From a virus, in IMG/VR virus record IMGVR_UViG_3300044859_000729, positions 1 to 26,277 of that record: a stretch of 26,277 nucleotides of DNA; one strand, written 5' to 3'. Every line of letters starts with the position of its first letter. The first letter of the stretch is position 1. The notes under the pieces are model-generated. The model did not search any database. It saw nothing but the letters and a program-made list of their open reading frames with translations, and was not told the origin of the DNA. The translations under genes were made by a program, and so were the position numbers. Positions 1-24,601 of this stretch are shown in pieces.

Positions 1-741
1 AAAGGCGTTGCTTTGGCGCCATCGGTTACGAGGGAAATGCGGATTAGGGACCGCATGGAACGCGCGATGCAGGGCAAAAACGAGGCGTTTGATACAGAGG
101 ATGTTATTAATCGGATTGCCGCAGGCGAAAAGGTTGACATCAGCCCGAAAATGCTTCAAACGGTCCTGAGTTCAATGATTCTTCGCAAGGACCACCCCGA
201 TATTACCAATTTGAATTTGGCGAATACCCGTTTAATGTCGCAAGATAACTTGGGTATTGCAAGAGCAGACATGCCGCAAATTCCAACAAATAAAAAAGAA
301 GAGTTCTTGTCCTTGTTGGAAAGCCGCGGTGTGAAGGTCGCGCGCGAGGAAGTTAAGGCATCAGAGTTGAAGCCGATTCAGGCGGAAATTTCTGGCACAA
401 CGAGCGGTCAAATTATGGTTCGGATGATTACTGACCGTGAACCAGCGGAGATGCAAAGTTTTGTTGGGCAAGCAATCGTTGTTTCTAAGGACAACTATGT
501 CATTGACGGGCATCACCGTTGGGCGGCAAGTGTCGCTTTGGAATTGGCAGGCGAAGGTTCACGAAAGATGAAAATTCTTAAAGTGGACATGCCCCACGAG
601 CAGTTGATTGGTGTAACAAAAAAGTGGAACGAATCGCAAGGTATCAAGGGTTTAGAGTTGGGACAAAACAACCCGAAAGACCCTGACATGAGCAAAGCCC
701 GCCTGTTGAAAATGATTGATTTGATTGTGGCAGGCGAATAG
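1..741 (+). CDS. ParB/sulfiredoxin-like domain protein, 5' end cut by window
   Basis: The reading frame is open from base 1, so the gene probably starts upstream; TTG at 13 and ATG at 37 are possible internal starts only. Counting codons from base 1, a segment DNLGIxRxDMPQ lies near 83-93 and the signature VSKDNYVIDGHHRWAA at 161-176. The latter matches the ParB N-terminal/sulfiredoxin fold nucleotide-binding motif (hydrophobic-D-G-x-H-R). ParB-like proteins bind or cleave DNA or hydrolyse nucleotides; here the activity is unknown. The same two segments recur in the gene at 3109, so the two are paralogues. The stop overlaps the GTG of the next gene (TAGTG). Placed just before the prohead protease gene, it could be the C-terminal domain of a portal or MuF-type protein lying outside the window; this cannot be seen. 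Confidence 0.75.
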   Translation, partial: KGVALAPSVTREMRIRDRMERAMQGKNEAFDTEDVINRIAAGEKVDISPKMLQTVLSSMILRKDHPDITNLNLANTRLMSQDNLGIARADMPQIPTNKKEEFLSLLESRGVKVAREEVKASELKPIQAEISGTTSGQIMVRMITDREPAEMQSFVGQAIVVSKDNYVIDGHHRWAASVALELAGEGSRKMKILKVDMPHEQLIGVTKKWNESQGIKGLELGQNNPKDPDMSKARLLKMIDLIVAGE

Positions 742-2894
742 TGGAACCGTTTATGGATGAAACCGTTGATGACATGCAAGAGGTTCAGGATTGGCTTGAC
801 GGCAAAATCTCGTGGATGGAAATGAGCGAGCCTGTCCGCGATGCGATTGATGAGGTCATGTTGGAGGAATCGGAAACGGAAGAGCCAATAGAGGAACCGT
901 CCGAAGAGCCACCTTTCACCGCAGAAATTGTTAAATCAAAAGAACTTGAATTGCTGCATAAGGCTGACGACGAACACCGTTTCACTTTGGGTCCTTGGTA
1001 TATACCGAACCGATACGACGCCCATGGCGAGTGGACGGACGCGGATGAACTTCAAAAATCTCTTTGGGAGTATGTCAAATCTGGTGACAGAGGTATCCGC
1101 TTGCAGCACAACAAAGACATTGTGGCAGGCGAATGGTTGGAGGCTATGTCTTTCCCTGTGCCTGTAACGATTGGCATGACCAAGGATGCGAACCCAAAAC
1201 AGGTGACATATCCTTCGGGAACAGTATTTCTGGGTGTCCAGTGGAAACCGTGGGCTTGGGAGTTGGTGAAGGCAGGAAAGATTCAGGGCTTTTCTATTGG
1301 TGGCGCAGCAGCACGAATTGAAATGGGGATGCCTGAGGGTATGGCTAAAGCCTCTTTCGGCGGTGACCGTAGCGCTGCTGGTCGTTACGCGGCTGAGCAG
1401 AGATGGCAGAACCGTTCAAGGGTTGCACAGGCAACTGCTCGCTATCGCGCGGTTGGGCGACAGGGTATTTTCGGTGCGGGCGCACGGCTCGCTGAGGCTC
1501 AGAGGCGGAAAGAGGAGCGCGAACGAACAGGCGTTGAGAAACCTAATCTGATTGACCGCATCAAATACTATTTCAGCGAGGATTACACCAACCCTAAACC
1601 GCTGGCAGACATTGACCGTGAGGACAGACAGCGCATTTTGGCTCAAAGGCGTGACCGATTGAGCGGTCCGATGGAACGCCGAGGCAACATTGATGCGATT
1701 TACCTTCCTTCTGGTAGAACTGCCATTGTTCAAGGAGGCAAGATTTCCACCACCCCGTTTGCAGGCGCGACTATTCGCCGTGGAAGCGGCTACAAGGGCA
1801 AGATGAAGAAGTCCGACGAACAAGTCAGGGCGTCGGTAATAGTTAATGCCCGTATTGAGGCATTTCGTAAGGCTTCGTTTGGTGGTGACCGTTCCGCGGC
1901 TGGCAGGTACGCCGCGAACATGCGATGGATGAATGAAACGCAGATGCCAAGAATCAAGATGACTGGAATGGGCGAATACGATTTTCCGTCTACGCCAAGC
2001 GGGGTAAGCATTGGGCGTTTAGCACCAAGTTTGTTATCGCATTGTGATTTTGATTCGGTTGCTTCAGAGTTGGATGCTAAAGGCTTGACGATGGACAGCG
2101 CTCAAACGCCGTTGATTGTTTACAGTCATCTATCAAGGGAACGACAAAAGCAGTGGATGTCCGAAGTTAACAGTTCCCTAGAAGGCGTCCCAACGCACCC
2201 AGACCGCGGCTCACAAGTATTTGTATTGGGCGGCGGCGGAGGAGCAGGGAAAAGTTCAAGTCCGAAAGGTACAATACCTTCAGATGGGAAAGACAACACG
2301 CCGAGGGAAGCGGTGTTGGTTGACTCGGATGAGACCAAAAAGCGTCTCGCTGCTTACAGTGCGCTTCAGAACTCAACAGCCAAAGACCAAAAAGATGCCG
2401 CCTCTTTTGTGCATGAGGAATCCTCAATGATTGCGGCAATGACAACGACTGCCGCTATCCAAACCAAGCGGGATGTGATTCTTGACGGCACCTTTGACAA
2501 CGGCGCACCAAAATCTTTGGCGAAATTAGATTTGATGAGAGGTCTTGGAGCAGAGAAGATTACGGGACTGTTCTTCTCATGCGATACCGATACGGCTCAA
2601 GCCCGCGCCCAGAAACGCTATAAGGATGCTAAAGCGCGCGGAGAAAAGGCACGGTTCGTTCCTGCTCCACCGCTCCGCAAAGCACATGTTTCGGTGTCCA
2701 AGAACTTCCCCGAGTATGTGGCGTCTGGTAAGTTTGACTCAATTACTTTGACTGATACAAACGGCAAACAAGGCGAAGAGTTCCAGATGTTTACTTGGGA
2801 CCGAACTAAAGGCTCAACGGTTATCAACGAAGCCGCCTACCAACGGTTCCTTGATAAAGCGAATGACCCAATAAATAAGCGAGGTAGCAAGTAA
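741..2894 (+). CDS. XkdF-type prohead protease fused to zeta-toxin-like kinase
   Basis: This is a 717-residue two-headed protein. After an acidic N-terminus (1-58), residues about 60-195 resemble the XkdF-type phage serine protease (Peptidase_S78_2); H123 in RLQHN and S185 in GFSIGG are candidate catalytic residues. Two copies of KASFGGDRSAAGRYAA..RW follow at 203-222 and 377-396, separated by a basic linker. Residues about 490-690 look like a zeta-toxin P-loop kinase: Walker A GGGGGAGKSS (497-506), VDSDETKKRL (527-536), HEESS (558-562) and ILDGTFDN (580-587). Prohead proteases trim scaffold and capsid during head maturation; zeta kinases phosphorylate UDP-sugars and can poison cell-wall synthesis. 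The GTG start overlaps the previous stop; ATG 753 is an alternative. No obvious zeta antitoxin adjoins it. The protease call is good, the kinase call strong at fold level, its substrate unknown. Confidence 0.82.
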   Translation: MEPFMDETVDDMQEVQDWLDGKISWMEMSEPVRDAIDEVMLEESETEEPIEEPSEEPPFTAEIVKSKELELLHKADDEHRFTLGPWYIPNRYDAHGEWTDADELQKSLWEYVKSGDRGIRLQHNKDIVAGEWLEAMSFPVPVTIGMTKDANPKQVTYPSGTVFLGVQWKPWAWELVKAGKIQGFSIGGAAARIEMGMPEGMAKASFGGDRSAAGRYAAEQRWQNRSRVAQATARYRAVGRQGIFGAGARLAEAQRRKEERERTGVEKPNLIDRIKYYFSEDYTNPKPLADIDREDRQRILAQRRDRLSGPMERRGNIDAIYLPSGRTAIVQGGKISTTPFAGATIRRGSGYKGKMKKSDEQVRASVIVNARIEAFRKASFGGDRSAAGRYAANMRWMNETQMPRIKMTGMGEYDFPSTPSGVSIGRLAPSLLSHCDFDSVASELDAKGLTMDSAQTPLIVYSHLSRERQKQWMSEVNSSLEGVPTHPDRGSQVFVLGGGGGAGKSSSPKGTIPSDGKDNTPREAVLVDSDETKKRLAAYSALQNSTAKDQKDAASFVHEESSMIAAMTTTAAIQTKRDVILDGTFDNGAPKSLAKLDLMRGLGAEKITGLFFSCDTDTAQARAQKRYKDAKARGEKARFVPAPPLRKAHVSVSKNFPEYVASGKFDSITLTDTNGKQGEEFQMFTWDRTKGSTVINEAAYQRFLDKANDPINKRGSK
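1347..1406 (+). repeat. AGRYAA motif, copy 1
   Basis: Codes for KASFGGDRSAAGRYAAEQRW, residues 203-222 of the protease-kinase protein, directly after the protease domain. First of four copies in this region (others at 1869, 3307 and 4365). Confidence 0.9.
1869..1928 (+). repeat. AGRYAA motif, copy 2
   Basis: Codes for KASFGGDRSAAGRYAANMRW, residues 377-396 of the same protein, ahead of the kinase domain. Its DNA differs from copy 1 at many third codon positions (for example GGTGGT against GGCGGT) while the protein is nearly identical, which points to selection on the peptide rather than a recent DNA copy. Confidence 0.9.
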
Positions 2895-3109
2895 TGGATT
2901 GGGAACGAGTCAAGTATTTTGCGGTCGCTATTGTCGGCGGGAGAAGTAAGGCAGATTTGGCTAAACAGGGCTATTTCGTGGATGCGACAGATGAAGATGC
3001 TTGGGCTTTGGCGTCATCGCAACCGCAACGCTACGCGGACGAGGAAGTTGAATCAGACATTGGTGTATGTGCGGCATTGCCGCCAGAGATTTTGGAGCAG
3101 TTGGTCTGA
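2894..3109 (+). CDS. Small hypothetical protein, 71 aa
   Basis: Not recognised. The ATG overlaps the previous stop (TAATG), with a GAGG nine bases upstream as a plausible ribosome site, and its own stop overlaps the next start (TGATG), so it is translationally coupled on both sides. The protein is acidic. Its first half (VAIVGGRSKADLAKQGYFVDATDEDAWALA) looks like a small alpha/beta unit, and it ends in a helix. No Cys, no membrane segment, no signal peptide. Its position between two effector-like genes would fit a small partner or immunity-type protein, but nothing in the sequence proves that. Confidence 0.7.
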   Translation: MDWERVKYFAVAIVGGRSKADLAKQGYFVDATDEDAWALASSQPQRYADEEVESDIGVCAALPPEILEQLV

Positions 3110-4149
3110 TGTCATGCGATTGTGGTTGCAGCGGTTCTGACCCGATTAGCAAAGGTCAAAGAGACATTCTTGATGGTTTACGCGAAGGCGTCCTATGGGA
3201 TTTGCCTCAAACCGATTGGGATGTGGTCGTTGCTCAAGTAGAAGAAGTAGGCGACATCCGCAAAACAACTGGTTCAGTGCAAACAATTTTGTATGGCGCT
3301 ATCCGTAAAGCAAGCCAAGGTTTCGGCGGGGACCGTTCAGCGGCAGGTCGTTATGCGGCGGAGCAGCGTTGGAAAAATCAGCAACGGAAACAACAGATGG
3401 CTCAAGGAATGACGCCCACAACACCAATGGGTAATGCTCCACAAAAACCTCAAGCAGAGGTGATGACGGACAACCCGAAAGAAGCATTGGATGCTTTGCG
3501 CCAAGGCAAAACCGTCGCAATGGGTGATGCCAAACAGGTCAACACACTTATTGAAGAACTGCACAAATTCACCAAAGAGGCAAAAGCCAAAGGCGAAAAA
3601 GTCAAACTCAATCTCTGCAAAGTTTCGGTCCCCGGGACGAATCTGTTTTGCGGTAATTCGTTGACTGGTCCAGATGGCAAACCTATTCCGCGAGACAAAA
3701 TGCCGCAGTTGGCTGGCAAACCTAAGAAGGGTTCTCCTGTTGATGACCCGAAAAAGTTTCCTGTTGACAAGGACGGCGAAGTCAATGTTGGTGAGGCGTT
3801 TGAAAAACATCTTGAAGGAAAAGGCATCGGAACAAAAATCCGTGAAGTTCCAGCCAACATGTTGAAGGCGTCGCAAAGCGAACTTAAAGGAAGCAATGTT
3901 GCTTTTATGATGAGTCCAGAGGGTCAAAAGGCTGTTGGTCTTGACACAAACACCATTTATGTGTCCAAGGATGGTTATGTTATTGACGGTCACCATCGTT
4001 GGGCTGCAAAAGTTGGCTTGGATGGTTCGGACGGCAAATTGGGTGACATGAAGATGAAGGTAAAAGTTATTGACATGCCGATTCAGGATGTTTTGCGGGA
4101 GGCTAATGCGTTTACCTCCATCATGGGCATTGAACCAAAGAGCGCATAA
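3109..4149 (+). CDS. Second ParB-like domain protein with AGRYAA motif
   Basis: The start at 3109 is chosen because it overlaps the previous stop (TGATG) and has GGAG about 10 bases upstream; an in-frame ATG at 3067 would overlap the previous gene by 43 bases. The protein has 346 residues. It starts with a CDCGC cluster (3-7), then an N-terminal domain (about 13-66) shared with the next gene, then the AGRYAA motif (67-88, with a two-residue insert), a Gln/Lys-rich linker, and a C-terminal domain. That domain has CKVSVPGTNLFCGN near 170, IPRDKMPQ, and VSKDGYVIDGHHRWAA at 285-300, the ParB/sulfiredoxin-like signature, matching the first gene of the window. A 47-base gap follows. Biochemical activity is unknown; DNA binding, nuclease or nucleotide hydrolysis are all possible for this fold. 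Confidence 0.78.
   Translation: MSCDCGCSGSDPISKGQRDILDGLREGVLWDLPQTDWDVVVAQVEEVGDIRKTTGSVQTILYGAIRKASQGFGGDRSAAGRYAAEQRWKNQQRKQQMAQGMTPTTPMGNAPQKPQAEVMTDNPKEALDALRQGKTVAMGDAKQVNTLIEELHKFTKEAKAKGEKVKLNLCKVSVPGTNLFCGNSLTGPDGKPIPRDKMPQLAGKPKKGSPVDDPKKFPVDKDGEVNVGEAFEKHLEGKGIGTKIREVPANMLKASQSELKGSNVAFMMSPEGQKAVGLDTNTIYVSKDGYVIDGHHRWAAKVGLDGSDGKLGDMKMKVKVIDMPIQDVLREANAFTSIMGIEPKSA
3307..3372 (+). repeat. AGRYAA motif, copy 3
   Basis: Codes for a KASQGFGGDRSAAGRYAAEQRW-type segment, residues 67-88 of the second ParB-like protein. It sits exactly at the boundary between the N-terminal domain and the linker to the ParB-like domain. Confidence 0.9.
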
Positions 4150-4196
4150 CCTTGGTCAACCCTCTTGCGGGCGGGTGCTTGTAACATCGGACAACC

Positions 4197-5036
4197 ATGA
4201 AACAGTCGGACCGTATTCTTTTGGATGGTTTGCGCTCAACAGTGCTTGCCGATATTCCACAAAGTCATTGGGAGGAAGTTGAAAAAGCGGTTGAGGACGC
4301 GGGCGATGTACGCGAGGTTTCGGGTTATGCGCGCACGATTGTTTTTGATGCGATTGAGGTAGCGAAGGCGTCTTTCGCCACGCGCTCAGAAGCAGGTCGT
4401 TATGCAGCCAACATGCGTTGGCGTGGTTCTGTTTCGCAGGGCGGTGTGGCGGCTAATGAGGCTCGGATGGCTGAAAACGCTCGTCTAGGTCGCGGCGCCG
4501 ACAATCCCGCGCGCGGGGGCATCAGCGAGGAACAACTGCGCCGTAAGTTTGACCGCTATGGCGATGGTGAAGGTCCGCAAAACACAAGAGAAGAATTGCA
4601 AGGCTTCATTGACAGGGGCTACACAACGCGCGACCAGATGAACGAGTACGACCAAAAAGTTCTTGACGGGAAGATTTCTGGCGGTGAAAGAAAGTATACG
4701 GGCGAACCATCAGATAAAAAACCGTTTCTTGACTTAACCGACATTGACCCAAGCGGAAGTATGGAATCAGGTTCGGCAAAGCCAGCAAAAGATGATTTGA
4801 CAGAAAAGTTGCCTAAGGCTTATCAGCGCGTAATTAGCAGAGCAGCCAAAACAAAACAAGGCTATTTGAAAACCGTTGATGAATTGGATTCTGTGAAACG
4901 AGAACGCAAAAATGAGATAAAAACTGCAATGAGTGAGGGATTTACTCGCGCCGAAGCAAAAGCGGGAGTTGATGAATACATTGCAATTTTGGAACAGGCA
5001 ATTAGCGCCAGCAAATTTAACGATGAAAAAAAGTAG
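4197..5036 (+). CDS. Unknown protein with duplicated N-terminal domain and AGRYAA motif
   Basis: 279 residues, no known family recognised. Residues 2-56 align with residues about 13-66 of the upstream protein (DRILLDGLRSTVLADIPQSHW against QRDILDGLREGVLWDLPQTDW, and GDVREVSGYARTIVFDAI against GDIRKTTGSVQTILYGAI), so the two arose by duplication. KASFATRSEAGRYAANMRW follows at 57-75, a variant lacking GGD. The remainder is charged: a low-complexity stretch, PFLDLTDIDPSG near 180, and a helical, probably coiled-coil end (about 215-279). The C-terminal part has no ParB or kinase signature. The ribosome site is weak (CGGACAACC before ATG). It may be a third cargo or effector variant built on the same N-terminal platform. 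Confidence 0.72.
   Translation: MKQSDRILLDGLRSTVLADIPQSHWEEVEKAVEDAGDVREVSGYARTIVFDAIEVAKASFATRSEAGRYAANMRWRGSVSQGGVAANEARMAENARLGRGADNPARGGISEEQLRRKFDRYGDGEGPQNTREELQGFIDRGYTTRDQMNEYDQKVLDGKISGGERKYTGEPSDKKPFLDLTDIDPSGSMESGSAKPAKDDLTEKLPKAYQRVISRAAKTKQGYLKTVDELDSVKRERKNEIKTAMSEGFTRAEAKAGVDEYIAILEQAISASKFNDEKK
4365..4421 (+). repeat. AGRYAA motif, copy 4 (variant)
   Basis: Codes for KASFATRSEAGRYAANMRW, residues 57-75 of the 279-residue protein. ATRSE replaces GGDRSA; the AGRYAAxxRW core is unchanged, marking the core as the constrained part. Confidence 0.88.
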
Positions 5037-5768: not shown

Positions 5769-6944
5769 ATGACCGAAGAACTCAGAAAATATAGGACTTA
5801 CGCAAGCGAGGAAGAGGCGCTCATTGAGCGTTTTGAGAAACTCGCTAAGCGCGCCAAGAAGTTGGGTGTTGAGCCTCCCCGCTTTGAGGTGGTCAACAGA
5901 TACGAGGCAGAGTACACCCCTCTTGTCGGCAAAAAGTTTCCTGTCGCCGCTATTGAGTACATCATTCACGAGGCAAAGGTTGCCCTTGAAGGTGGCTGGC
6001 AATTCATCGGTGTCATTGAGCGTGGTGCCGAAGCCAACATCGTGTTGGGTTTGAAGGAACACGCCGAACTGTTCAAGCAGTTCCAAAAAGTTGACCTCGT
6101 TTGTGAGCATTGCCAACTGAAGAGGCAACGGGCTAAGACCCTGATTGTCCGCAACGAAGTTGGTGAGGTCAAGCAGATTGGTGTTGACTGTGTTCGCGAC
6201 TTCCTCGGTCACGAGCCACCTCGCTTGTGGGAATTTTTCGCTGAGGACGAGTATCCAGATACAGACTTCCGTGAGATGGAAAGCGATTTCCGCACACTTC
6301 ATTCCGCTTGGGAATATGTCCTAACGGCATTTCGCATTGCTGAAGTCAGAGGTTTCACCGCAACTCGCGATGCCGATGGCATGTTGTTGCAAAACAGCAC
6401 CAAGGATTTGGTACAGGATGCTTTGAGGAGCAGGGAAGAGTTGGCAAAGTATCCGCTCGGTGACGAGGTTTACCAAAAGGCTGAAGCCGCATTTGACTGG
6501 ATTGTCAAACTTGAAACGGATGACACTTTCCTTCAAAGCCTAAAGCAGATTGTACTTACGGGTTTCCCGAAGCCAAAGTACATTGGTATTCTTGTGAGCA
6601 TCGTAAAAGCACACCCTCGGTTCCTTCAAGGTGAAGAGGTCGCCAAAAAACAGGTTGAGGAGCAGGCGAAACTTACGCAGGTAGTTGAAGGCAAGCAGGA
6701 AATCGTTGGTGTGGTCCTCACCCAATACTGGAAAGATACGGATTACGGTATGCGACAGGTAATGGTCGTGTTGGATGACCGCGGCTTCAAGGTGTGGGGA
6801 ACGGTTCCCGCAAGCATTGACCCGAAGGAGGGCTACCGTGTTAAATTCAGCGCTGGTGTTTCGGCTGGCAACGAATTTGGTTTCGGTTTCTTTTCCCGCC
6901 CAACAAAAGCAGTAATCCTAGATGAACCAAAGGTGGCATTATGA
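5769..6944 (+). CDS. Cys-containing protein with OB-like C-terminal domain
   Basis: 391 residues. ATG 5769 is preferred over ATG 5754 because GGAGGAGGG lies between them. A charged helix opens the protein. The central part contains CEHC (112-115), KRQRAKTLIVRNEVGEVKQIG, C141 and H148 in CVRDFLGHE, a possible zinc site of the CxxC...C...H type; I have a general memory of a similar 'C.hC...R..T..v....g..kqvG..C..dFlG' pattern in phage proteins of unknown function. The end (about 300-391) is beta-rich, with VGVVLTQYWKDTDYGMRQVMVVLD and a FGFGFFSRPTKAVI tail, resembling an OB-fold nucleic-acid-binding domain. A role in DNA or RNA metabolism is inferred. It has its own strong promoter and overlaps the next gene by ATGA. 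Confidence 0.75.
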   Translation: MTEELRKYRTYASEEEALIERFEKLAKRAKKLGVEPPRFEVVNRYEAEYTPLVGKKFPVAAIEYIIHEAKVALEGGWQFIGVIERGAEANIVLGLKEHAELFKQFQKVDLVCEHCQLKRQRAKTLIVRNEVGEVKQIGVDCVRDFLGHEPPRLWEFFAEDEYPDTDFREMESDFRTLHSAWEYVLTAFRIAEVRGFTATRDADGMLLQNSTKDLVQDALRSREELAKYPLGDEVYQKAEAAFDWIVKLETDDTFLQSLKQIVLTGFPKPKYIGILVSIVKAHPRFLQGEEVAKKQVEEQAKLTQVVEGKQEIVGVVLTQYWKDTDYGMRQVMVVLDDRGFKVWGTVPASIDPKEGYRVKFSAGVSAGNEFGFGFFSRPTKAVILDEPKVAL

Positions 6945-7273
6945 ACATGTTTATTTTCACTTCGTTGATTGTCGTGACATCGGTCGGCGGAACTCTTGCC
7001 GCCATCAAGTTCATGCGTTCACCAAAGAACCCCGACATTGAGCGTTACAAAGCAATTCATATTCCTGTATGGGTGAATCAAAACGAGTTCGGGTCAATGT
7101 TGATTGAGCAGATGTTGGTGTCAGCGTTCCGTCAAGCCATGGACAACTCCAACGCTTTACGCAAAAACATTTCAGATGTTCAACAGGAACGACTGTTTAC
7201 TGACTTTTTGGAAATCTCACATTCTTACGCTGAGGGCATGGTCCGTCGGTACACAGAACCCGACTTTTACTAA
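6941..7273 (+). CDS. Single-pass membrane protein, 110 aa
   Basis: The ATG overlaps the previous stop (ATGA), so it is translated with the upstream gene. Residues 3-23 (MFIFTSLIVVTSVGGTLAAIKF) form one membrane helix, followed by a positive stretch (KFMRSPK), predicting the N-terminus outside and the rest in the cytoplasm. The rest is helical and ends in RRYTEPDFY. A lone helix at this position is atypical for a classical holin. It may be a host-modifying or membrane-anchored accessory protein. No family recognised. Confidence 0.7.
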   Translation: MNMFIFTSLIVVTSVGGTLAAIKFMRSPKNPDIERYKAIHIPVWVNQNEFGSMLIEQMLVSAFRQAMDNSNALRKNISDVQQERLFTDFLEISHSYAEGMVRRYTEPDFY

Positions 7274-7384
7274 ACCCCTGTTCATCCCTATCTGGTGCGG
7301 TGCTGACCGTACACTCGCCTTTGTCCAAGACCCGCGGGTTGATTCACGAAAGTGATGATGCTTGCGGATTTTTTTAAGGTAAAC

Positions 7385-8218
7385 ATGAACAACAACAAAA
7401 AGCGCAAAATGGTTGCCTTGAAAGTTTTGGAAACAAGCGGAGTGGACCACCCCGCCCACCTTGAAGAAGGTTGGATAGTAATGAAAAGCGCTAATGCTAC
7501 GGAGGCAACTGTGAGCGAACAAGTGGAAGTTATGGACGAAACGCTGGAACAAGCGTATATTGAGCGTGTCGTTGAACTAGAAAAGGCTCTTGAAGCCTCC
7601 CAAGCCGCAATGCGAAAGATGTACGACGGCGACATGGAAGATGCCGACGAAGAAGAAGAAGATGATGACGACATGGCAAAAATGTCAAAGAAGAAGAAGA
7701 AGATGCCTGACTTCATTCAAGACAAGATTGATGCCAAAGAAGATGATGAAGATGAGGAGACGATGAAGTCTCTGATGAAGTCGCTTCCTGAGCCAGTCCG
7801 CGAAATGTTAGAAAAGGCACAGGGCGAAGCCAATGTTGCCCGTGAGGAACTCCGCAAGGAGCGCCAAGAGCGCCGCAACGAGGAATTTGTTGCTAAAGCC
7901 GCAGAATGGAACCATTTGACGATTGACGCCAAAGAGTTCGGTCCTGCTCTTGCTCGTTTGAGCGAAATTGATGCGAACCTTAGCCAAATGGTTGAGAAGG
8001 CTATGAGCGGCGCAAACGCGCAAGCAGAGTCGGCTTCAATCTTTGATGAGATTGGTCGTCCAGTTCGCTCGGATGATAACTCCGCCTATGCGAGAGTTGA
8101 AACCATGGCAAAGGCTGCTGTTGCTTCTGGAGAGTTCGTAACTCTTGAGCAGGCAATCGCAGGCGTTGTTGTTAAAAACCCAGACCTCTACGCGGCATAC
8201 CGCGCCGAGTCCCGCTAA
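7385..8218 (+). CDS. Capsid scaffolding protein
   Basis: 277 residues from ATG 7385, chosen for AAGG five bases upstream; a GTG at 7352 in frame would add MMMLADFFKVN without a ribosome site. The N-terminus (VLETSGVDHPAHLEEGWIVMKS) is of the type seen in phage head scaffold/protease-linked proteins. The middle is extremely charged: DADEEEEDDDDMAKMSKKKKK, then a long acidic/helical stretch (about 95-190) expected to form coiled coils. The C-terminal third is Ala-rich and helical. Gene order protease, scaffold, decoration, major capsid matches known head modules, and the upstream XkdF-type protease is the likely processing enzyme. It is separated from that protease by the 5244-7273 insert. Confidence 0.8.
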   Translation: MNNNKKRKMVALKVLETSGVDHPAHLEEGWIVMKSANATEATVSEQVEVMDETLEQAYIERVVELEKALEASQAAMRKMYDGDMEDADEEEEDDDDMAKMSKKKKKMPDFIQDKIDAKEDDEDEETMKSLMKSLPEPVREMLEKAQGEANVAREELRKERQERRNEEFVAKAAEWNHLTIDAKEFGPALARLSEIDANLSQMVEKAMSGANAQAESASIFDEIGRPVRSDDNSAYARVETMAKAAVASGEFVTLEQAIAGVVVKNPDLYAAYRAESR

Positions 8219-8236
8219 GCACGAAGGAAAAGCGCA

Positions 8237-8629
8237 ATGGCATACGAAATCAGTAATTACACCCTCAAAATCACTCTTGAGGCTGGCGCAGACTTGTCTG
8301 CTGCTCAGTACAAGTTTGTGAAAATCTCTGCTGGTAAAGCAGTTGTTTGCTCAGGCGCCACGGACATTCCAATCGGCGTTCTTCAGAACAGCCCAATCTC
8401 AGGTGGAGAAGCCTCCATCTTGGTTGCTGGCGGCACGAAACTCGTTGCTGGTGCGGCTATCGCGGCTGGCGTTGTCATCGGTACTTCCAGCACTGGTAAG
8501 GCTGATGCGAAGGTTGCAGGAACCGATACAACAGAATACGCAGTTGGAGTAGTAATTCTTCCTTCAGGTGCCGATGCTGACATTCTTACAGCAGTAATCA
8601 ACTGCGCTAGTCCAAACCGCGCAGCGTAA
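8237..8629 (+). CDS. Capsid decoration/cement protein (DUF2190-like)
   Basis: 130 residues, AAGGAA upstream of the ATG. The composition is Ala/Gly/Val-rich and all-beta: YKFVKISAGKAVVCSGATDIPIGVLQNSP, then a central VLVAGGTKLVAGAAIAAG and TEYAVGVVILPSGADADILTAVI. This 'parsigned value - ipIGVlqn - G....gv.l...a.a...i.v' arrangement is typical of DUF2190 capsid cement proteins, which form trimeric knobs that stabilise the expanded shell. It lies directly before the major capsid gene, the usual place. Confidence 0.8.
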   Translation: MAYEISNYTLKITLEAGADLSAAQYKFVKISAGKAVVCSGATDIPIGVLQNSPISGGEASILVAGGTKLVAGAAIAAGVVIGTSSTGKADAKVAGTDTTEYAVGVVILPSGADADILTAVINCASPNRAA

Positions 8630-8655
8630 TCAGGAAACACAGGAGCAGATAACAC

Positions 8656-9606
8656 ATGCCACAGCCAACACAAACACAGGTCCATGTTGACGCGATTCTG
8701 ACCAACATCAGCGTCGCTTACTTTCAACAGAACCAGAACTTCATCGCAACACGGGTTTTCCCTGTTGTGCCAGTCTCTAAGCAGAGCGACAAGTTCTTCA
8801 CCTACACCAAGAACGATTGGTTCCGCGATGAGGCTCAGCGCCGTGCGGATGCAACCGAGTCTGCTGGTGGCGGCTACAACCTCTCAACTGACTCATATCA
8901 GGCTGATGTTTATGCTTTCCACAAGGACATTGGTGACCAGACTCGTGCGAACGCCGATGCTCCAATCAATGTTGACCGTGAGGCGGCAGAGTTTGTTACC
9001 TCGCGTTTGATGCTGAAGATGGAAACACAGTTCGTCAGCAACTTTTTCACCACTGGTATTTGGGGAACCGATACCACGCCAAGCAACCTGTGGAGTGATT
9101 ACACCTCTTCGGACCCAATCGGAGACATTGAGAGTGGCAAGCGCGCCATCTTGAGCGTCACTGGCTACGAGCCAAACACTTTGGTTCTTGGTTACGATGT
9201 GTTCATTCAGTTGAAGAATCACCCTGACCTTGTTGACCGCATCAAGTACACCACGAGCAATGTCCTCACAGAAGATGTGATGGCAAGCCTGTTCGGTGTG
9301 CCTCGCGTGATGGTCGCAAAGAGCGTCAAAGCCACAAACAACGAAGGTGCAACTGGCGCCTATGCGTTCAACTACGGCAAGAACGCCCTTCTTACTTACT
9401 CCGCTCCATCAGCAGGATTGCTACAGCCTTCGGGCGGTTACATCATGTCGTGGACTGGTGTTTCGGGTGGTTTGGGTCAAACTGTTGGCGTGTCGCGTAT
9501 GCGTATGGAACAGTACAAGGCTGACCGTGTTGAAGCCGAAGTGGCTTTTGACATGAAGGTCATTGGTTCGGACCTCGGTTACTTCTTCTCCGCTTGCGTA
9601 GCATAG
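8656..9606 (+). CDS. Major capsid protein (HK97-like fold)
   Basis: 316 residues, with AGGAG upstream of the ATG. The N-terminal region (VDAILTNISVAYFQQNQNFIATRVFPVVPV) and the long acidic/aromatic loop (KFFTYTKNDWFRDEAQRRA) fit phage major capsid proteins of the group with DUF2190 cement. The centre contains TGYEPNTLVLGYDVFIQLKNHPDLVDRIKYT, a typical P-domain helix-strand unit, and the end is beta-rich (RMRMEQYKADRVEAEVAFDMKVIGSDLGYFF). There is no obvious N-terminal scaffold domain, so the separate scaffold at 7385 is expected to be needed. Position and order support the call. Confidence 0.88.
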   Translation: MPQPTQTQVHVDAILTNISVAYFQQNQNFIATRVFPVVPVSKQSDKFFTYTKNDWFRDEAQRRADATESAGGGYNLSTDSYQADVYAFHKDIGDQTRANADAPINVDREAAEFVTSRLMLKMETQFVSNFFTTGIWGTDTTPSNLWSDYTSSDPIGDIESGKRAILSVTGYEPNTLVLGYDVFIQLKNHPDLVDRIKYTTSNVLTEDVMASLFGVPRVMVAKSVKATNNEGATGAYAFNYGKNALLTYSAPSAGLLQPSGGYIMSWTGVSGGLGQTVGVSRMRMEQYKADRVEAEVAFDMKVIGSDLGYFFSACVA

Positions 9607-9618
9607 TAGGGGGCGCCA

Positions 9619-10038
9619 ATGGCTAACCGACTTACTAAAGGCAAGGGTCTATTTGGTTCGCTTCGTACAAGCGGTCCTGTTGCTGTCAATACTTTGACCG
9701 CAAAGACCACTGTTACGACTTTGACTGATGCCGCTGAAACTTTGACTGCCGCTATGGTTGTCACGAACGGCGGGTTGCTTGTTGGTACTCCTTCTGCTTC
9801 GCGGGCTAAGACAATTCCTACGGGAACTCTTACTTGTGCGGCGTTGAAGGGCTACGCAGTGGGCGACACTTTTGAGGTCAATGTTGTTAACTTGGCTTCT
9901 TCTACTTATCCACTCGTTATTACGGCTGGTACCGATGCGACCATTGTTGGTGCAGCCTCGGTGAGTGCCGCAACATCGGCTACATTCAAGGTTCGCGTAT
10001 CCGCTGCTAATACGGTAGTTTGGTACAGAACAGCATAA
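9619..10038 (+). CDS. Small beta-rich structural protein, 139 aa
   Basis: Preceded by GGGGG-containing ribosome site just after the capsid gene stop. The protein is Thr/Ala/Val-rich with repeated TxTxT runs and predicted all-beta structure: NTLTAKTTVTTLTDAAETLTAAMVV, then a domain with VGDTFEVNVVNLASSTYPLVITAGTDATIVG, ending in VVWYRTA. Short beta-rich proteins in this position are often capsid-surface or head-fibre proteins. No exact family is recognised. Confidence 0.72.
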   Translation: MANRLTKGKGLFGSLRTSGPVAVNTLTAKTTVTTLTDAAETLTAAMVVTNGGLLVGTPSASRAKTIPTGTLTCAALKGYAVGDTFEVNVVNLASSTYPLVITAGTDATIVGAASVSAATSATFKVRVSAANTVVWYRTA

Positions 10039-10045
10039 GCGCTAG

Positions 10046-10057
10046 GGTCAAGTGACC
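10046..10057. repeat. Inverted repeat in gap
   Basis: GGTCA-AG-TGACC, overlapping a second repeat CAAG-TGAC-CTTG (10049-10060), in the 46-base gap before the next gene. The loop is too short for a stable RNA hairpin and no T-run follows. It could be a protein-binding site or chance. Confidence 0.35.
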
Positions 10058-10084
10058 TTGGTGTTCTACTTTTGAGAGAGTTTT

Positions 10085-10324
10085 ATGGCATTTAGAGTTC
10101 TAAAACCTATTTCCGCTGATGATGGTTCCATTATTCCTACTGGCACTCTTGTTGAGGCTGAGGGTTGGCGGAATCTTCGGGCTTTGATTAACGGTCGCTA
10201 TTTGGGCGAGGTTTCTGTTGTTGAGGTCGCTGTTGTTGACGAGGCTGTTGATGCTGAGGTAGTAAAACCGAAGGCTAAGAAGGCAAAAGTTGTTGAGGAA
10301 GTGACTGACAATGACAATCTCTAA
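10085..10324 (+). CDS. Small head-region protein with acidic Val/Glu-Lys tail
   Basis: 79 residues. The N-terminal half (GSIIPTGTLVEAEGWRNLRALINGRYLGEV) is a compact beta-helix unit of the 'G.iv......r.L...G.i' type; the tail is a Val/Glu/Asp/Ala/Lys run ending in VEEVTDNDNL. The same architecture recurs at 14835, next to the tail tube genes, so the two are probably paralogues or at least the same design. Small proteins with this layout are common in actinophage-like structural operons but have no firm function. A ribosome site GAGAGAG precedes the ATG. Confidence 0.7.
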   Translation: MAFRVLKPISADDGSIIPTGTLVEAEGWRNLRALINGRYLGEVSVVEVAVVDEAVDAEVVKPKAKKAKVVEEVTDNDNL

Positions 10325-10673
10325 TTATGGTGAGTTGGCGTTTCTTGATACGCTTCGCAATGTTTCTTTTGCTGTCACACAACCTTATGTGAAGTTGCAT
10401 TTGGGTGACCCGGGCGAGGCTGGTACTTCTAACCCTGCTGTTGAGGCAACTCGTAAATCGGTGTCATTTTCGGCGGCTTCTTCTGGCTCTATGGCGACTT
10501 CGGCAACGATTACTTGGACGAATGTGTCTACGACTGAAACTTATAGTCATTGGTCATTATGGGATGCGTTAACCTCTGGCAACTGTTTGTGGACTGGTGC
10601 TTTCAGTTCTTCGGCGGCGGTAACTGCTGGTGACACTTTTCAAATCACTTCGCTCACGCTGACCTTAGATTAG
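10311..10673 (+). CDS. Virion structural protein, 120 aa
   Basis: The ATG overlaps the 3' end of the previous gene by 14 bases. The protein is of a recurrent phage type with YVKLHLGDPGEAGTSN near residues 26-41, a Thr/Ser-rich beta region, and HWSLWDALTSGNCLWTGAF near 80-98. I know this pattern as a common small phage structural or tail-tip-associated protein but have no firm role. No signal peptide or membrane segment. It is predicted all-beta, and sits between the capsid and connector genes. Confidence 0.72.
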   Translation: MTISNYGELAFLDTLRNVSFAVTQPYVKLHLGDPGEAGTSNPAVEATRKSVSFSAASSGSMATSATITWTNVSTTETYSHWSLWDALTSGNCLWTGAFSSSAAVTAGDTFQITSLTLTLD

Positions 10674-10687
10674 TTAGGTAGCCCGTT

Positions 10688-11893
10688 GTGGCTATCATAA
10701 AACGGTTTACGCTGGATGATGCCCTGCTGGGCGTCTTGGATGGTGATTCTTTCCTTGATGGTATTCAGGGGGAGGTTGCTACTGGTAGCGGTTCTGGTTC
10801 TCAAACTGGCGTAGGTTTACGCACTGCTGTTACTACGGCTGAGGGTTACGGCGACTCGGACCCGTTTGGTCCTTCTGGAAATGACACGGTTGTAATTCCT
10901 TGTCGTGTTGCTACGGGTGATGGTGTTTCTGGTGGTAGCGCTGACCGTGTAGTCGTTGTTTTGCGTGATGCGACTGGTTCGGGTTCGGGTTCTGATTCCG
11001 CAGTTGGTTTGTATTCGGCGGTGAGGTCCGCATCTGGAAGTGGTGCTGGTGCTGGGATTGCGGATGGCGCTAGGACGGTTATTAAGATTGCTACTGGTTC
11101 TGGTGCGGGTTCTGAGGTTGTAAGTAAGGTTTTGACCAGTATTCGCACGGCTGCTGATTCGGCTGCTGGCGATGGTGATGCGATTGGGGTTGTTACTCGT
11201 TTCGTGTCGGCTTCTGGTTCTGGTTCTGGTGGTTCTCAGGTTTCTGTTGCTTATGAGGCTTACAGGTCTGCTTACGGTTCTGGTGGTAGCGATACAGGCG
11301 ATTCGGCTGACGGTGAGGTCACGCGCGCCCGCATGGGCGCTGGAAGCGGTGTGGGCGGTTCTAGCGTTGCTACTTTGGTTACGAGTTTTGCTGTTGGTTC
11401 GGATGCCGCGGCAGGTAGTGGTGAGGCGTCAGGGTTTTCTACGCGGGCAAGGACGGGTGCTGCTGCTGGTTCGTCGGGTGAGGATGCGATTGGTGTTCGC
11501 ATAGTTTTACGCACTGCTTTAGGTAGCGGTGTTGGTAGTCAAGCCGCTGACGGTCTGCATATCGCGCCTCGGTTGGCTTCTGGTGAAGGTTTTGGTGGTA
11601 GCAGTATTGCTACTTTGAGAACTGTTTTTGGGGTGGCGTTGGATGCTGCTTCTGGTTCTGCGGCGGTTGTTTCGTTGTTGACGGTTATTCGGTCTGCTTC
11701 CAATAGCGGTTCATCGGGTGCGGTGTCTGAAGGGTTAATAGATGTTCCTATTGCTTTGGCTGATGGTTCGGTTTCGGCAGATGGGGCGAGTCTCGCGGTT
11801 GCCGTTAGCGGGGTAGCACTAAAGGTAGATGCAGACGGTTCTACACTGGCTGTTTTGGCAAGCGGAAATGCAGGAACGGTGGCGCTGGGATAA
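10688..11893 (+). CDS. 401-aa protein of 20-residue Gly/Ser repeats
   Basis: GTG start at 10688. Residues 7-25 read FTLDDALLGVLDGDSFLDG, nearly the same as residues 24-42 of the tail hub-like protein at 21376. Residues about 30-355 are roughly 15-16 tandem degenerate repeats of 20 residues, consensus xATGSGSGSxxAxGLxxxxR, often ending in Arg (some units are longer). Residues 356-401 are an Ala/Val/Ser/Asp-rich end. Each unit would give one or two short beta strands with Gly-Ser turns, suggesting a fibrous beta-solenoid or extended fibre. It lies between capsid and head-tail connector genes, so a head fibre is the best guess; its link to the tail hub by two shared elements leaves a neck or tail role open. 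Function not established. Confidence 0.75.
   Translation: MAIIKRFTLDDALLGVLDGDSFLDGIQGEVATGSGSGSQTGVGLRTAVTTAEGYGDSDPFGPSGNDTVVIPCRVATGDGVSGGSADRVVVVLRDATGSGSGSDSAVGLYSAVRSASGSGAGAGIADGARTVIKIATGSGAGSEVVSKVLTSIRTAADSAAGDGDAIGVVTRFVSASGSGSGGSQVSVAYEAYRSAYGSGGSDTGDSADGEVTRARMGAGSGVGGSSVATLVTSFAVGSDAAAGSGEASGFSTRARTGAAAGSSGEDAIGVRIVLRTALGSGVGSQAADGLHIAPRLASGEGFGGSSIATLRTVFGVALDAASGSAAVVSLLTVIRSASNSGSSGAVSEGLIDVPIALADGSVSADGASLAVAVSGVALKVDADGSTLAVLASGNAGTVALG
10775..11752 (+). repeat. Tandem 60-base coding repeat array
   Basis: Degenerate repeats of about 60 bases (20 codons) inside the 10688 gene. Individual units include GSGSGSQTGVGLRTAV, GSGSGSDSAVGLYSAV, GSGAGAGIADGARTVI and GSGVGSQAADGLHIAP. 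They differ at the DNA level, so the array is old or kept diverse by selection. It resembles the repeats at 22591-22836. Confidence 0.85.
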
Positions 11894-21375: not shown

Positions 21376-22890
21376 ATGCCACAGACAATGCCGTGGGGTG
21401 CGGAATACACCCTTTTAGGTGAGTTCAACTTACCGTCAAACATTTTTACTTTGGATGATGCGACGCTCGGAGTTTTGGATGGCAACTGCTATTTAGACGG
21501 TCGCACAGAGGACGATTTGACGGACCGTTTGCAGTCGGTGGAGATAAGCCGCGGACGCCACGACCAGTTCCAAGATTTTCAGGCTGGGACGATGCGATTG
21601 ACGCTTTCCAACAATGACCGCGAACTTGACCCTGTAAACACCGCGTCACGCTATTTTGACCCTGTTTCTGGAACATCTGGAGTCACAATTCGTCGCAAAG
21701 TTACCCTCAAGTATCAAAATACCAAGATTTTTACTGGGCGTATCACCGATATTGATATTGCTTACGACCCAACATCCAGTCCGAACACCCGTTCCACGGT
21801 CACGATTGATGCCGCCGACGACTTCGTTTTGCTTGCCAACACCACCTTGGATGAGGTTTTGCCCACATCACAGTTATCGGGCGCTCGGGTCAATGCGATT
21901 CTTGCTTTGCCTGAAGTCAACTACACGGGTCCAACCAGCATTGACACGGGAACAGTCCTCTGTTTGGACGACCCGATTGCAGAACAAACTAGAACGATTG
22001 ATGCGTTGCAGGCGGTCGCAGCAACAGAACGCGGCTACCTGTATTTCAAGGGTGACGGCACCCTTGTGTTTACGGACCGTATTACAGGCTCACCAATTCC
22101 GCTCAAAATCTTTGCTGATGACGGCACAGGGCAAGAATATGAGTCTTTGTCCATTGTTTACGGGCAAGAAAACCTGTTTAACCGTGTTGTTTGTACGCCG
22201 ATTGACTCGGTGACTCCTAGCGTTGCCGATGATGCTGCTAGTCAAGCCACTTTTGGTATCGCAACCCTTTCCATTGGCGGTCTGCTCTGCTCGGACGCCA
22301 ACGCGCAAACGCTCGCCAACTACCTGTTAGCCCTCTACAAAGACCCGTCGTACCGCTTTGACGGTATGGGTATCACTTTCATGGGCAACAACATAGGGTT
22401 GGTTTCTCAACAAGAAATCATCAACCTTGACTTGGGCGATGTGGTCCGAGTGGTCAAAAACTTTGCTATCGGCACACCAACCTCGGTTTATCAGAATGTC
22501 GCGATTGAACACATTGACCATGCGATTACACCACAATCTCACAACATCACTTTCCGTTACGCCCCAGCGCCGTTCACAACGATAACTCGCACGGCAACTG
22601 GTTCTGGCACAGGCACTCAAACGGCTTCAGGGTTGAGGATTACAGGAAAAACTGCTGAAGGCACTGGTGGCGCTACCGCTGGTGATAGTGCTACGGGTGT
22701 TCGCGTTGCTTTGAGAACGGCTACAGGCTCAGGCTCAGGCTCCGAAACGGCTACCCCGCTCGTTACGAGGGTGGCTGTAGCAACGGGTTCAGGCTCAGGC
22801 TCCGAAACCGCTTCGTTCACAATTCTGTTTGTGTTGGAGTTGGATTCGGCTACGCGAGGCTTACTAGATACGAACATTCTCGGTAACTAG
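21376..22890 (+). CDS. Tail hub/minor tail protein with C-terminal 20-residue repeats
   Basis: 504 residues, ATG one base after the tape measure stop. The first 22 residues precede FTLDDATLGVLDGNCYLDG (24-42), shared with the 10688 protein. The core (about 45-395) has DRLQSVEISRGRHDQFQDFQAGTMRLTLSNNDRELDP, a common start of phage tail hub or Gp37-like minor tail proteins, then KVTLKYQNTKIFTGRITDIDIAYDP and ADDFVLLANTTLDEVLP. Residues 406-487 are four repeats of 20-22 residues (TATGSGTGTQTASGLRITGK type). The last 17 residues (ELDSATRGLLDTNILGN) again resemble the LDDATLGVLDG motif. It should sit at the tail tip next to the tape measure end. Confidence 0.82.
   Translation: MPQTMPWGAEYTLLGEFNLPSNIFTLDDATLGVLDGNCYLDGRTEDDLTDRLQSVEISRGRHDQFQDFQAGTMRLTLSNNDRELDPVNTASRYFDPVSGTSGVTIRRKVTLKYQNTKIFTGRITDIDIAYDPTSSPNTRSTVTIDAADDFVLLANTTLDEVLPTSQLSGARVNAILALPEVNYTGPTSIDTGTVLCLDDPIAEQTRTIDALQAVAATERGYLYFKGDGTLVFTDRITGSPIPLKIFADDGTGQEYESLSIVYGQENLFNRVVCTPIDSVTPSVADDAASQATFGIATLSIGGLLCSDANAQTLANYLLALYKDPSYRFDGMGITFMGNNIGLVSQQEIINLDLGDVVRVVKNFAIGTPTSVYQNVAIEHIDHAITPQSHNITFRYAPAPFTTITRTATGSGTGTQTASGLRITGKTAEGTGGATAGDSATGVRVALRTATGSGSGSETATPLVTRVAVATGSGSGSETASFTILFVLELDSATRGLLDTNILGN
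22591..22836 (+). repeat. Four 20-22-residue coding repeats at the hub C-terminus
   Basis: Units start TATGSGTGT, TAEGTGGATAGD, TATGSGSGSETA and VATGSGSGSETA. The last two share an identical DNA stretch TCAGGCTCAGGCTCCGAAAC. The consensus is the same as in the 10688 protein, roughly 11 kb upstream. Confidence 0.85.
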
Positions 22891-23743: not shown

Positions 23744-24601
23744 GTGACGCTTCGCTGGGATACTCGCAACAGGGTTTCTACAACTGTCCAATCGTGGATG
23801 TACGGTGTTACTACTCCTCCCATATTTCCACCTCCAACCGTAGAGTATCTAGTTATTGCTGGTGGTGGTGGCGGTGGAAATAATTTTATTGAAGGGGCTT
23901 CAGGAAATTACAACGGTGGTGGTGGTGCAGGCGGCTATCGCAGTTCAGCAAGTTTTGCTGTTGGCGGTTCTGTCACGGTAACTGTTGGTGCTGGCGGAGG
24001 TTCGCAGTCCAAAGGAAGCAACTCGGTTTTCAGCACGATTACTTCTACTGGTGGCGGTGCAAGCAGAAGTGCTGGTGGTTCAGGCGGTGGTGCTTTATTC
24101 AACACAGGCGGCGGCGGTGCAGGAAACGAAGGTGGATTCTCTCCGTCAGAAGGCAACACGGGAGGTTCATCGCCAGGGTCTAACGGTGGTGGTGGTGGTG
24201 GTGGTGGTGCTGGCGGTGCTGGCGGTGCTAGTTCCAACACTAATTCAGGTGCAGGCGGTGCTGGTTCTTCGTCAAGCATCACAGGTTCCGCGGTAACTCG
24301 TGGTGGTGGTGGTGGTGGAAGTGGCGGTGACTTTGCATTTGGTGCTAGTGGAGGTTCTGGTGGTGGCGGCAATGGTTTTGGACCTGGTCTTGCCAATTCT
24401 AACGGTTCGGCAAATACTGGTGGCGGTGGAGGTGGCAAGAACGGTTCTGGTGGTTCTGGAATTGTAATCATTGCCTATGCAGACACATTTGACCCGATTG
24501 CTTCTATTGGTGCTGGTCTTACATATTCGGTTTCAACTGTTTCTCGTTCAGGTTTTCGTGTTTATACTTTTACTGCTGGAACAGGAACGGTGACTTTCTA
24601 A
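23744..24601 (+). CDS. Glycine-rich tail-tip/receptor-binding-type protein
   Basis: 285 residues, GTG start. After a short head (1-33) comes one glycine-rich module: EYLVIAGGGGGG, GAGGYRSSASFAVGGSVTVTVGAGGG, NSVFSTITSTGGGASR, long Gly/Ser/Asn runs, SSSITGSAVTRGGGGG, ending SGIVIIAYADTF near 240. The last part is a beta strand pair ending FRVYTFTAGTGTVTF. The pattern matches the Gly-rich domain of phage tail tips, where Gly runs may pack as polyglycine II helices and contact the receptor, as in T4-like adhesins. The stop overlaps the next start. Confidence 0.78.
   Translation: MTLRWDTRNRVSTTVQSWMYGVTTPPIFPPPTVEYLVIAGGGGGGNNFIEGASGNYNGGGGAGGYRSSASFAVGGSVTVTVGAGGGSQSKGSNSVFSTITSTGGGASRSAGGSGGGALFNTGGGGAGNEGGFSPSEGNTGGSSPGSNGGGGGGGGAGGAGGASSNTNSGAGGAGSSSSITGSAVTRGGGGGGSGGDFAFGASGGSGGGGNGFGPGLANSNGSANTGGGGGGKNGSGGSGIVIIAYADTFDPIASIGAGLTYSVSTVSRSGFRVYTFTAGTGTVTF

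Follow-up and report, generated by a model that had tools for sequence, protein, structure and literature searches.

What does a short protein sequence do that recurs in three adjacent genes of an uncultured phage, at the joints between unrelated domains? The question is raised by IMG/VR virus record IMGVR_UViG_3300044859_000729, the 26,277 nucleotides of which were read as a whole and are referred to as the window. An earlier, sequence-only reading had reported four copies of a motif with the core AGRYAAxxRW, placed them at borders between N-terminal domains and different cargo-like regions, and guessed at a capsid-targeting or protease-processing tag. To our knowledge, the selection of injected proteins for phage heads is clear for few phages. 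We consider it probable that the motif is a head-cargo tag, that is, a predicted prohead-protease site plus an address helix, carried by polyvalent proteins that are packaged and injected. Uncultured phages seem to mark many different enzymes with this one tag, probably for head loading and delivery to the next bacterium.

A Conserved Tag at the Joints of Unrelated Modules

A six-frame search of the window found four exact copies of AGRYAAxxRW on the + strand (1377-1406, 1899-1928, 3343-3372, and 4392-4421) and none in the other frames. They lie in three adjacent genes, as had been stated, and their extent is larger than reported: The element reaches upstream to the residues phi-x-K-A (phi = I/L/V/M/F), a part that the earlier reading had missed. 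A degenerate DNA pattern gave four matches in the window and 102 in 16 further records picked for holding the pattern, with no match of the reversed control in either case. The claim that core residues are kept while the DNA differs was borne out: In 188 tag copies compared, the core codons are freely mixed, and we therefore conclude that selection acts on the protein. A GGD-containing motif, by contrast, is not common to all four copies, as that of the 279-residue protein reads ATRSEAGRYAANMRW.

The proposed placement at domain borders was confirmed at the sequence level, with corrections. Tag 1 begins nine residues after the match to the S78_2/XkdF head protease and tag 2 precedes that to a zeta-type kinase; what comes before tag 2, however, is an uncharacterised stretch of about 150 residues and not the protease itself. 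The duplicated N-terminal domain of the two following proteins corresponds to a helical domain of about 50 residues, which is present in 41 of 211 tagged proteins. It occurs in 71 reading frames (duplicate loci included), 63 of them tagged, and in 61 of these 63 the tag starts between -4 and +10 residues from the end of the domain; of the eight untagged frames, four are truncated at a contig end. AlphaFold models of the ParB-like and the protease-zeta proteins, of modest quality (mean predicted local distance difference test score, pLDDT, 68 and 66), render tags 1-3 as short helices almost wholly within stretches below pLDDT 50. The protease domain itself is of low confidence in the protease-zeta model, so that the latter adds little for tag 1; a linker position is supported by the models for tag 3 and the zeta side of tag 2 only. 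An ordinary domain as identity of the tag was set aside: No Pfam match at E≤1 covers a tag in any of the three tagged proteins of the window, and the window tags received two weak PHROG matches only (E 0.046 and 0.099).

Beyond the window, scanning IMG/VR with a DNA pattern yielded 110 stretches, some of which match by chance. The search of phage genomes with a tag profile that the sequence-only reading had proposed was carried out with 26 columns derived from 175 sequence windows: It yielded 274 tag copies in 211 non-redundant proteins of IMG/VR phage contigs, in which unrelated domains are joined. One copy is present in 165 proteins, two in 32, three in 12, and four and five in one protein each. 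We aligned two sets of 85 and 84 proteins (169 in total, at least 120 residues long and below 75% identity, from 171 representatives of the 211), and in both the tag is essentially the sole common sequence, the mean column identity being 5%. The element comprises approximately 24 residues: phi-x-K-A, a short spacer, and a nearly fixed RS(E/A)AGRYAAxxRW, seen as such in windows selected with a regular expression that prescribes much of this core, for which reason the profile matches, with variants such as SEAARYAA and SEAGKYAA, give the fairer picture.

A lysine lies 4-10 residues ahead of the core arginine in 262 of the 269 tags with enough upstream sequence. Its P3 position (two before the lysine) is I/L/V/M/F in 250 of these 262 (95%), compared with 26% for lysine residues in general in tagged proteins, and the residue after it is alanine in 211. 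The spacing between site and helix varies among tags, and tags lacking the lysine exist in some lineages, e.g. EFGDYPGHPFRGNQ. A modest excess of Gly, Thr, and Pro is seen in the 25 residues behind the tag. A median of 53 residues precedes the first tag; inner tags occur in 46 of the 211 proteins, and in multi-tag proteins the tags are at least 113 residues, i.e. whole modules, apart.

The modules so joined are unrelated to each other and include head protease, zeta kinase, ADP-ribosyltransferase (ART), ParB-like, GNAT, HNH, and zincin domains. With tags masked, 262 protein pairs are alike behind the tag only and 114 before it only. Under a stricter test, which requires the opposite side to be without similarity at E≤0.05 and whose counts come without a random-boundary null, 225 pairs (114 proteins) resemble each other behind the tag but not detectably before it; the reverse holds for 100 pairs (55 proteins). 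The ParB-like cargo of the window, for instance, shares 66% identity with the final part of a protein from another locus with the order protease-tag-tag-ParB. At a cut-off of E≤0.001, Pfam assigned S78_2 to 16 of the 169 tagged proteins, zeta toxin to 14, ADP-ribosyltransferase exoenzyme to 12, DUF3626 to 11, DUF6321 and DUF5872 to eight each, GNAT (Acetyltransf_1) to seven, and HNH to two, with single matches to topoisomerase, M90, and an ATLF-type zincin (the last below its curated cut-off); Phage_Mu_F had no match. These tallies are silent on which side of the tag a domain lies, and HNH and GNAT pieces occur before tags too. Among the 25 of 60 PHROG families shown for 84 of the 169 proteins, the ParB-like phrog_2859 accounts for ten and an Alt-like RNA polymerase ADP-ribosyltransferase for four, while the minor-head PHROG 16619 is matched by seven of the 84; the window protein matches it over its zeta part.

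Outside uncultured phages the tag was not encountered among the matches listed. From 120 GTDB cellular-genome loci, at least 98 loose matches in some frame were obtained, two with loosely matching context and none convincing among the matches listed; we accordingly rejected an origin in bacterial genomes, although prophage copies may exist, and the wide non-phage occurrence without boundary bias that the sequence-only reading had named as counter-evidence was not seen among these matches. In cultured phages, no counterpart was found for a 28-residue tag peptide at E≤10 (tblastn, which is insensitive for short peptides) or for the 279-residue protein at E≤5. For the ParB-like protein there were matches in 443 records; in the 30 listed the match starts no earlier than residue 192, a point past the tag. 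Identity with defence genes was likewise rejected, as PADLOC matched none of the 85 proteins of the first alignment set, to which that scan was confined. The tag strings appear in none of the 5.39 million texts searched, a search that mostly excluded subscription papers and preprints.

A Predicted Protease Site in Common with the Scaffold

If the residues ahead of the helix are a cleavage site of the phage's own head protease, the same pattern should mark the protein that this protease is expected to digest. In all 18 scaffolds analyzed, phi-x-K-[A/S] is over-represented, with 5-10 occurrences each vs 1.1-2.1 expected; for this enrichment test Ala and Tyr were allowed as phi as well. Pooled over 11 homologous scaffolds, KA was counted 51 times vs 7.0 and KS 23 times vs 3.1. 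When the residue pairs following phi-x are ranked in these 11 proteins, KA, KS, and KN take the second to fourth places after HP, which belongs to a conserved VDHPAH motif, whereas in portal, capsid, and tape-measure controls all three fall outside the 12 top pairs. The scaffold-type pattern expected of an S78/XkdF substrate, a lysine with I/L/V/M/F two residues before it, is present in 250 of the 269 tags. In the segments preceding tags, the 16 protease proteins left out, the site was found 58 times vs 17.1, much of which is one VEKA in the domain of about 50 residues. In an isolate, Arthrobacter phage Kovu, the protease domain of which is approximately 64% identical to that of the window, phi-x-K-[A/S] occurs seven times in the scaffold and four times in the protease protein; the capsid protein has no such site. 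The scaffold comparison offers a substrate rule, phi-x-K↓A/S (the arrow marking the predicted cut), for one head-protease family that is open to testing.

Tagged Genes in the Head-Gene Block

In the window and nine further records, the genes for terminase, portal, MuF, protease, scaffold, and capsid proteins are interspersed with tagged ones; with the exception of the protease, these head genes are themselves untagged where found. For a test blind to the tag, we took the best 80 of 512 loci in which the capsid protein of the window has a relative. In 35 of them the sequence ahead of the capsid gene amounts to 4.5 kb or more, and 24 of these 35 carry the tag; over the 80 loci (near-duplicates included) 99 of 99 copies lie within 10 kb upstream of that gene on the same strand; the sequence examined amounted to 439 kb downstream and 386 kb upstream. 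Two records, G003 (at 34869-37555) and G002 (L075), have a second cluster of tagged genes in common (LEKKMSPSEAGRYAAEMRW and neighbours), which is situated away from the head block.

Proposed Function and Alternatives

The sequence analysis establishes that the tag is real, conserved at the protein level, and a module joint, and its concentration in the head-gene block as well as the phi-x-K pattern in common with the scaffold are equally evident from the sequences. Context and domain type lend good support to the view that the tag bearers are head cargo. Cleavage at phi-x-K↓A is predicted on reasoned grounds, and the weakest step is to take the helix as an address rather than as a protease dock or an exit signal. 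The element would consist of a phi-x-K↓A site, followed within a few residues by the RSxAGRYAAxxRW helix, a linker, and the cargo domain. During head assembly, the procapsid would take up the tagged fusions, for which the helix is the likely address. While digesting the scaffold, the XkdF-type protease would then cut at phi-x-K↓A and release each effector module with the helix kept at its N-terminus. Finally, the modules would be ejected together with the DNA into the next host, where they may act as polyvalent-type effectors. The guess of the sequence-only reading, a capsid-targeting or protease-processing tag, is partly supported: It fits the head-block context, the injected-type domains, the scaffold-like site, and the alternative tags described below.

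Several observations weigh against this interpretation. One record (G005, L254) encodes a stand-alone, untagged head protease of 287 residues without a zeta match while other genes of its head block are tagged, and the tag is consequently not needed for the protease itself. Tagged genes also occur elsewhere: G003 has two that follow the tail genes, G004 has one far upstream, and G002 has three copies at 3.7-5.7 kb, about 38 kb from the capsid gene. A separate receptor gene was not found among the untagged genes of 22 upstream blocks (of the 35 loci), of which only those for scaffold and head-fibre recur in every block, and two of nine relatives lacking AGRYAA (L318, L320) displayed no other tag. 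As to the protease site, the test of the phi-x-K-[A/S] pattern came after its discovery, and pooling homologous scaffolds yields counts that are not independent of each other. In protease proteins KA ranks only fifth, after conserved core pairs, with some sites inside the conserved domain; the Kovu portal has three sites; and cargo modules do not avoid the pattern (206 vs 175.7 expected), which speaks against a strict cleavage model. At least two of the 274 copies (L052, L083) look like chance, and phrog_31590, a family of unknown function, has a weak match (E 3.6e-5) to a tag of record G001.

Among the alternatives, the one that survives best, and which we still hold to be unlikely, is that the whole element is an extended protease recognition site: The helix would dock the protease, and the cargo would enter the head by other means, through fusion to the protease, to MuF, or to the domain of about 50 residues. 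The phi-x-K↓A part in common with the scaffold is compatible with such a site, and Kovu has an RNA ligase joined to the protease with phi-x-K-A (LTKA) and no tag between them. Scaffolds, however, have phi-x-K-[A/S] sites without the helix, so that the helix is not needed for the site; moreover, the spacing between the two is variable, and most tagged proteins match neither fusion partner, a protease match being found in 16 of the 169 and a MuF match in none. Clearly less probable is a small DNA-binding or condensing helix that lets the cargo ride with the packaged genome. The conserved arginines and two aromatic residues of the core would suit this role, and Dar proteins of P1 contact packaged DNA according to the part of the source used here (PMC12810830), but the alternative tags GHPFRGNQ and HPGHxxQxxHG, found at the same place, have no such pattern. 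We regard it as more improbable still that the tag is an ejection or unfolding signal, acting at portal or tail upon exit instead of entry: The spacing of multiple tags by whole modules would let each module start with a tag after the predicted cleavage, yet the data do not distinguish exit from entry. A DNA-level recombination joint or mobile repeat devoid of protein function, which the swapping of modules at the tag could suggest, was rejected as highly improbable because codons are freely mixed while residues are fixed and the hydrophobic P3 is 95% conserved.

Should the head-cargo tag be correct, its 13-residue core together with the cut site would list injected effectors from metagenomic sequence, tagged proteins without a recognizable domain included. 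It would furthermore provide a compact loading tag for phage capsids and hint at how phages exchange effector modules while keeping their delivery.

Comparison with Known Head-Cargo Systems

In phage T4, the prohead protease gp21 cleaves at L/I-x-E, a site with a hydrophobic P3, and the capsid-targeting sequence (CTS) of internal proteins and Alt is N-terminal and removed by this cleavage. The present tag resembles the CTS as a short sequence that is found on diverse, presumptive head-internal proteins and linked to a predicted prohead-protease site with hydrophobic P3, and Alt-like ADP-ribosyltransferases are among its bearers. In contrast to the CTS, the helix lies behind the predicted cut and would stay on the cargo, and the tag, up to five per protein, is located inside proteins at module joints. 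Because of this position we do not class the tag as a T4 targeting sequence, even though it may work like one. The maturation protease of HK97, which we take to be an S78 member, provides a second parallel. HK97 gp5 is cut at K103/S104 (PMC10275583), where its sequence reads FNK↓S and fits phi-x-K-[A/S], a pattern that occurs four times in the first 104 residues vs 0.58 expected. The HK97 scaffold is part of the capsid protein (the delta-domain of gp5), whereas in the window a scaffold-like protein is encoded separately, along with tagged cargo.

The repertoire of tagged domains points to the polyvalent proteins of phages and conjugative elements (Iyer et al. 2017), which in the sections used here are said to combine ART, ParB-like, zincin, and nucleic-acid domains in one protein, to be encoded near virion genes, and to be predicted as injected (PMC5512222). 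Much of the tagged repertoire (ART, ParB-like, zincin, GNAT) is among the domains described there; several disparate domains share one polypeptide (protease-zeta and protease-ParB fusions, up to five tags); and tagged genes lie beside virion structural genes with few elsewhere. Here, however, one short tag recurs across modules and marks the swap points, while those sections describe no common tag (PMC5512222). The DarA, Hdf, and Ddr proteins of P1 are head-packaged and co-injected, DarA being cut by the prohead protease; their loading is ordered via DarA and Hdf, with no shared short tag in the portion of the source drawn upon (PMC12810830). DarA domains do occur together with the GHPFRGNQ-type tag. 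Finally, MuF polymorphic toxins of temperate phages likewise fuse a head-associated part to exchangeable toxin-like C-terminal domains; in our set, by contrast, the MuF-type protein of record G001 is untagged and the common part is the tag of about 24 residues, not the MuF domain.

Other Tags in Relatives

Of the 35 capsid-anchored loci, 11 lack the AGRYAA tag; nine were examined, and seven carry other tags. Three close relatives of the window phage (L309, L311, L312) have His-rich KHPGHxxQxxHGG-like repeats in the same position as the AGRYAA tag; KHLAGKHDQxSH-like repeats, also His-rich, and a KHxxHNQxxH-like variant occupy this place in L315 and L324, respectively, and GHPFRGNQ is found twice in L292 and once in L285. 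In pattern scans, the KHPGHxxQxxHG kind (L456-L486) and the GHPFRGNQ kind recur several times per contig. The latter is probably common: It was found in at least 135 proteins with up to six copies each, and among the matches listed an upstream lysine is present in 105 of 141 windows, 89 of these with I/L/V/M/F at P3. For 58 of these 135 proteins, the longest for the most part, the Pfam assignments include S78_2 protease and Mu F four each, portals three (of three Pfam kinds), ART-PolyVal two, and InPase, LPD3, DarA_N, and DarA_C one each. A protein of Xanthomonas phage Rb1 that is annotated as "internal head protein" (L487, PQ569993.1, locus 6796-10461) holds a tag of this type, GDFSGHPFRGNQH. 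Its gene lies near one annotated as DarA N-terminal and a metallopeptidase gene. As a separate observation, phi-x-KGDxxGHPFRGNQ(W/Y/H) occurs up to nine times per locus in L336-L455 (e.g. L368, L358).

A more daring generalization, which we consider possible but rather unlikely, is that tailed phages with an S78/XkdF-type protease use exchangeable, lineage-specific cargo barcodes (AGRYAA, GHPFRGNQ, HPGHxxQxxHG), such that any effector domain behind a barcode and phi-x-K would be loaded into the heads of the respective lineage, cut free, and injected. If so, the arsenal would be evolvable through module swapping, and the barcode may exclude the cargo of a co-infecting phage from the head.

Features of the Window

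The features of the window are compiled in Table 1.

Table 1. Tags, predicted cleavage sites (arrow), and associated genes and domains of the window, in order of position.
Feature	Position	Strand	Evidence or remark
C-terminal part of a further ParB-like cargo protein, truncated at contig edge	1..741	+	
717-residue fusion: XkdF/S78_2 head protease, tag 1, stretch of about 150 residues, tag 2, zeta-type kinase	741..2894	+	
Peptidase_S78_2 (XkdF) protease domain, residues 70-194	948..1322	+	Pfam E 1.9e-10
Predicted protease site M-A-K↓A, before tag 1	1341..1352	+	
Tag 1 (KASFGGDRSAAGRYAAEQRWQNRS)	1347..1418	+	core helix 1368-1406; profile E 9e-14; model helix 210-223, low-confidence stretch
Predicted protease site F-R-K↓A, before tag 2	1863..1874	+	
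Tag 2 (KASFGGDRSAAGRYAANMRWMNET)	1869..1940	+	core helix 1890-1928; profile E 6e-15; model helix 384-399, low-confidence stretch
Zeta-toxin-type kinase domain (putative cargo), residues 488-676	2202..2768	+	Pfam Zeta_toxin E 4.3e-17; pLDDT about 90
360-residue protein: helical domain of about 50 residues, tag 3, ParB/Srx-like cargo	3067..4149	+	phrog_2859 E 7.9e-15
Predicted protease site I-R-K↓A, before tag 3	3301..3312	+	K81 nearly invariant (10-protein alignment)
Tag 3	3316..3384	+	core helix 3334-3372; profile E 1e-13
279-residue protein: helical domain of about 50 residues, tag 4, unknown cargo	4197..5036	+	
Predicted protease site V-A-K↓A, before tag 4	4359..4370	+	sequence
Tag 4 (AKASFATRSEAGRYAANMRWRGS)	4362..4430	+	core helix 4383-4421; profile E 4e-13
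Scaffold-like protein, untagged	7352..8218	+	phrog_13547; seven phi-x-K-[A/S] sites, about 2.0 expected
Major capsid protein, untagged; anchor of context test	8656..9606	+	phrog_1005

The truncated product at the contig edge is 56% identical to L053_-_10333 and 53% identical to L012_+_2351, whose tags span residues 18-41 and 19-41, respectively; because of this homology to two N-terminally tagged proteins, a fifth tag copy may lie past the edge. In the fusion protein, the protease domain shows many invariant columns across 17 aligned proteins. It is also matched by phrog_14859 and phrog_1530, which are named "RNA ligase" and "DNA methyltransferase", names that probably come from fused partner domains; gp20 of Kovu, for its part, is annotated as RNA ligase and has the protease domain inside. 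In tag 3, residues R90, S91, A93-A98, R101, and W102 are invariant among ten aligned proteins, and the top Foldseek matches of the 360-residue protein are ParB-N, Noc, and sulfiredoxin, all weak (E 0.1 and above). The scaffold-like protein starts with ETSGVDHPAHLxEGWIVMK, in common with its aligned scaffold relatives and gp27 of Kovu.

Record G001 contains two tags with weak matches to phrog_31590 on its minus strand (39551-39652 and 40352-40438). The family, which spans 74 positions, also matches a cyanobacterial control genome and no tag of the window, G002, G003, or G012; a wider helix family around it may exist. Further downstream in the window, the tail-region proteins at 10688-11893 and 21376-22890 have repeated segments of the (T/S)A.GSGSGS type in common, and two adjoining proteins very rich in glycine, encoded close to where the tail genes end (23744-26277), are possibly tail-fibre or receptor-binding parts.

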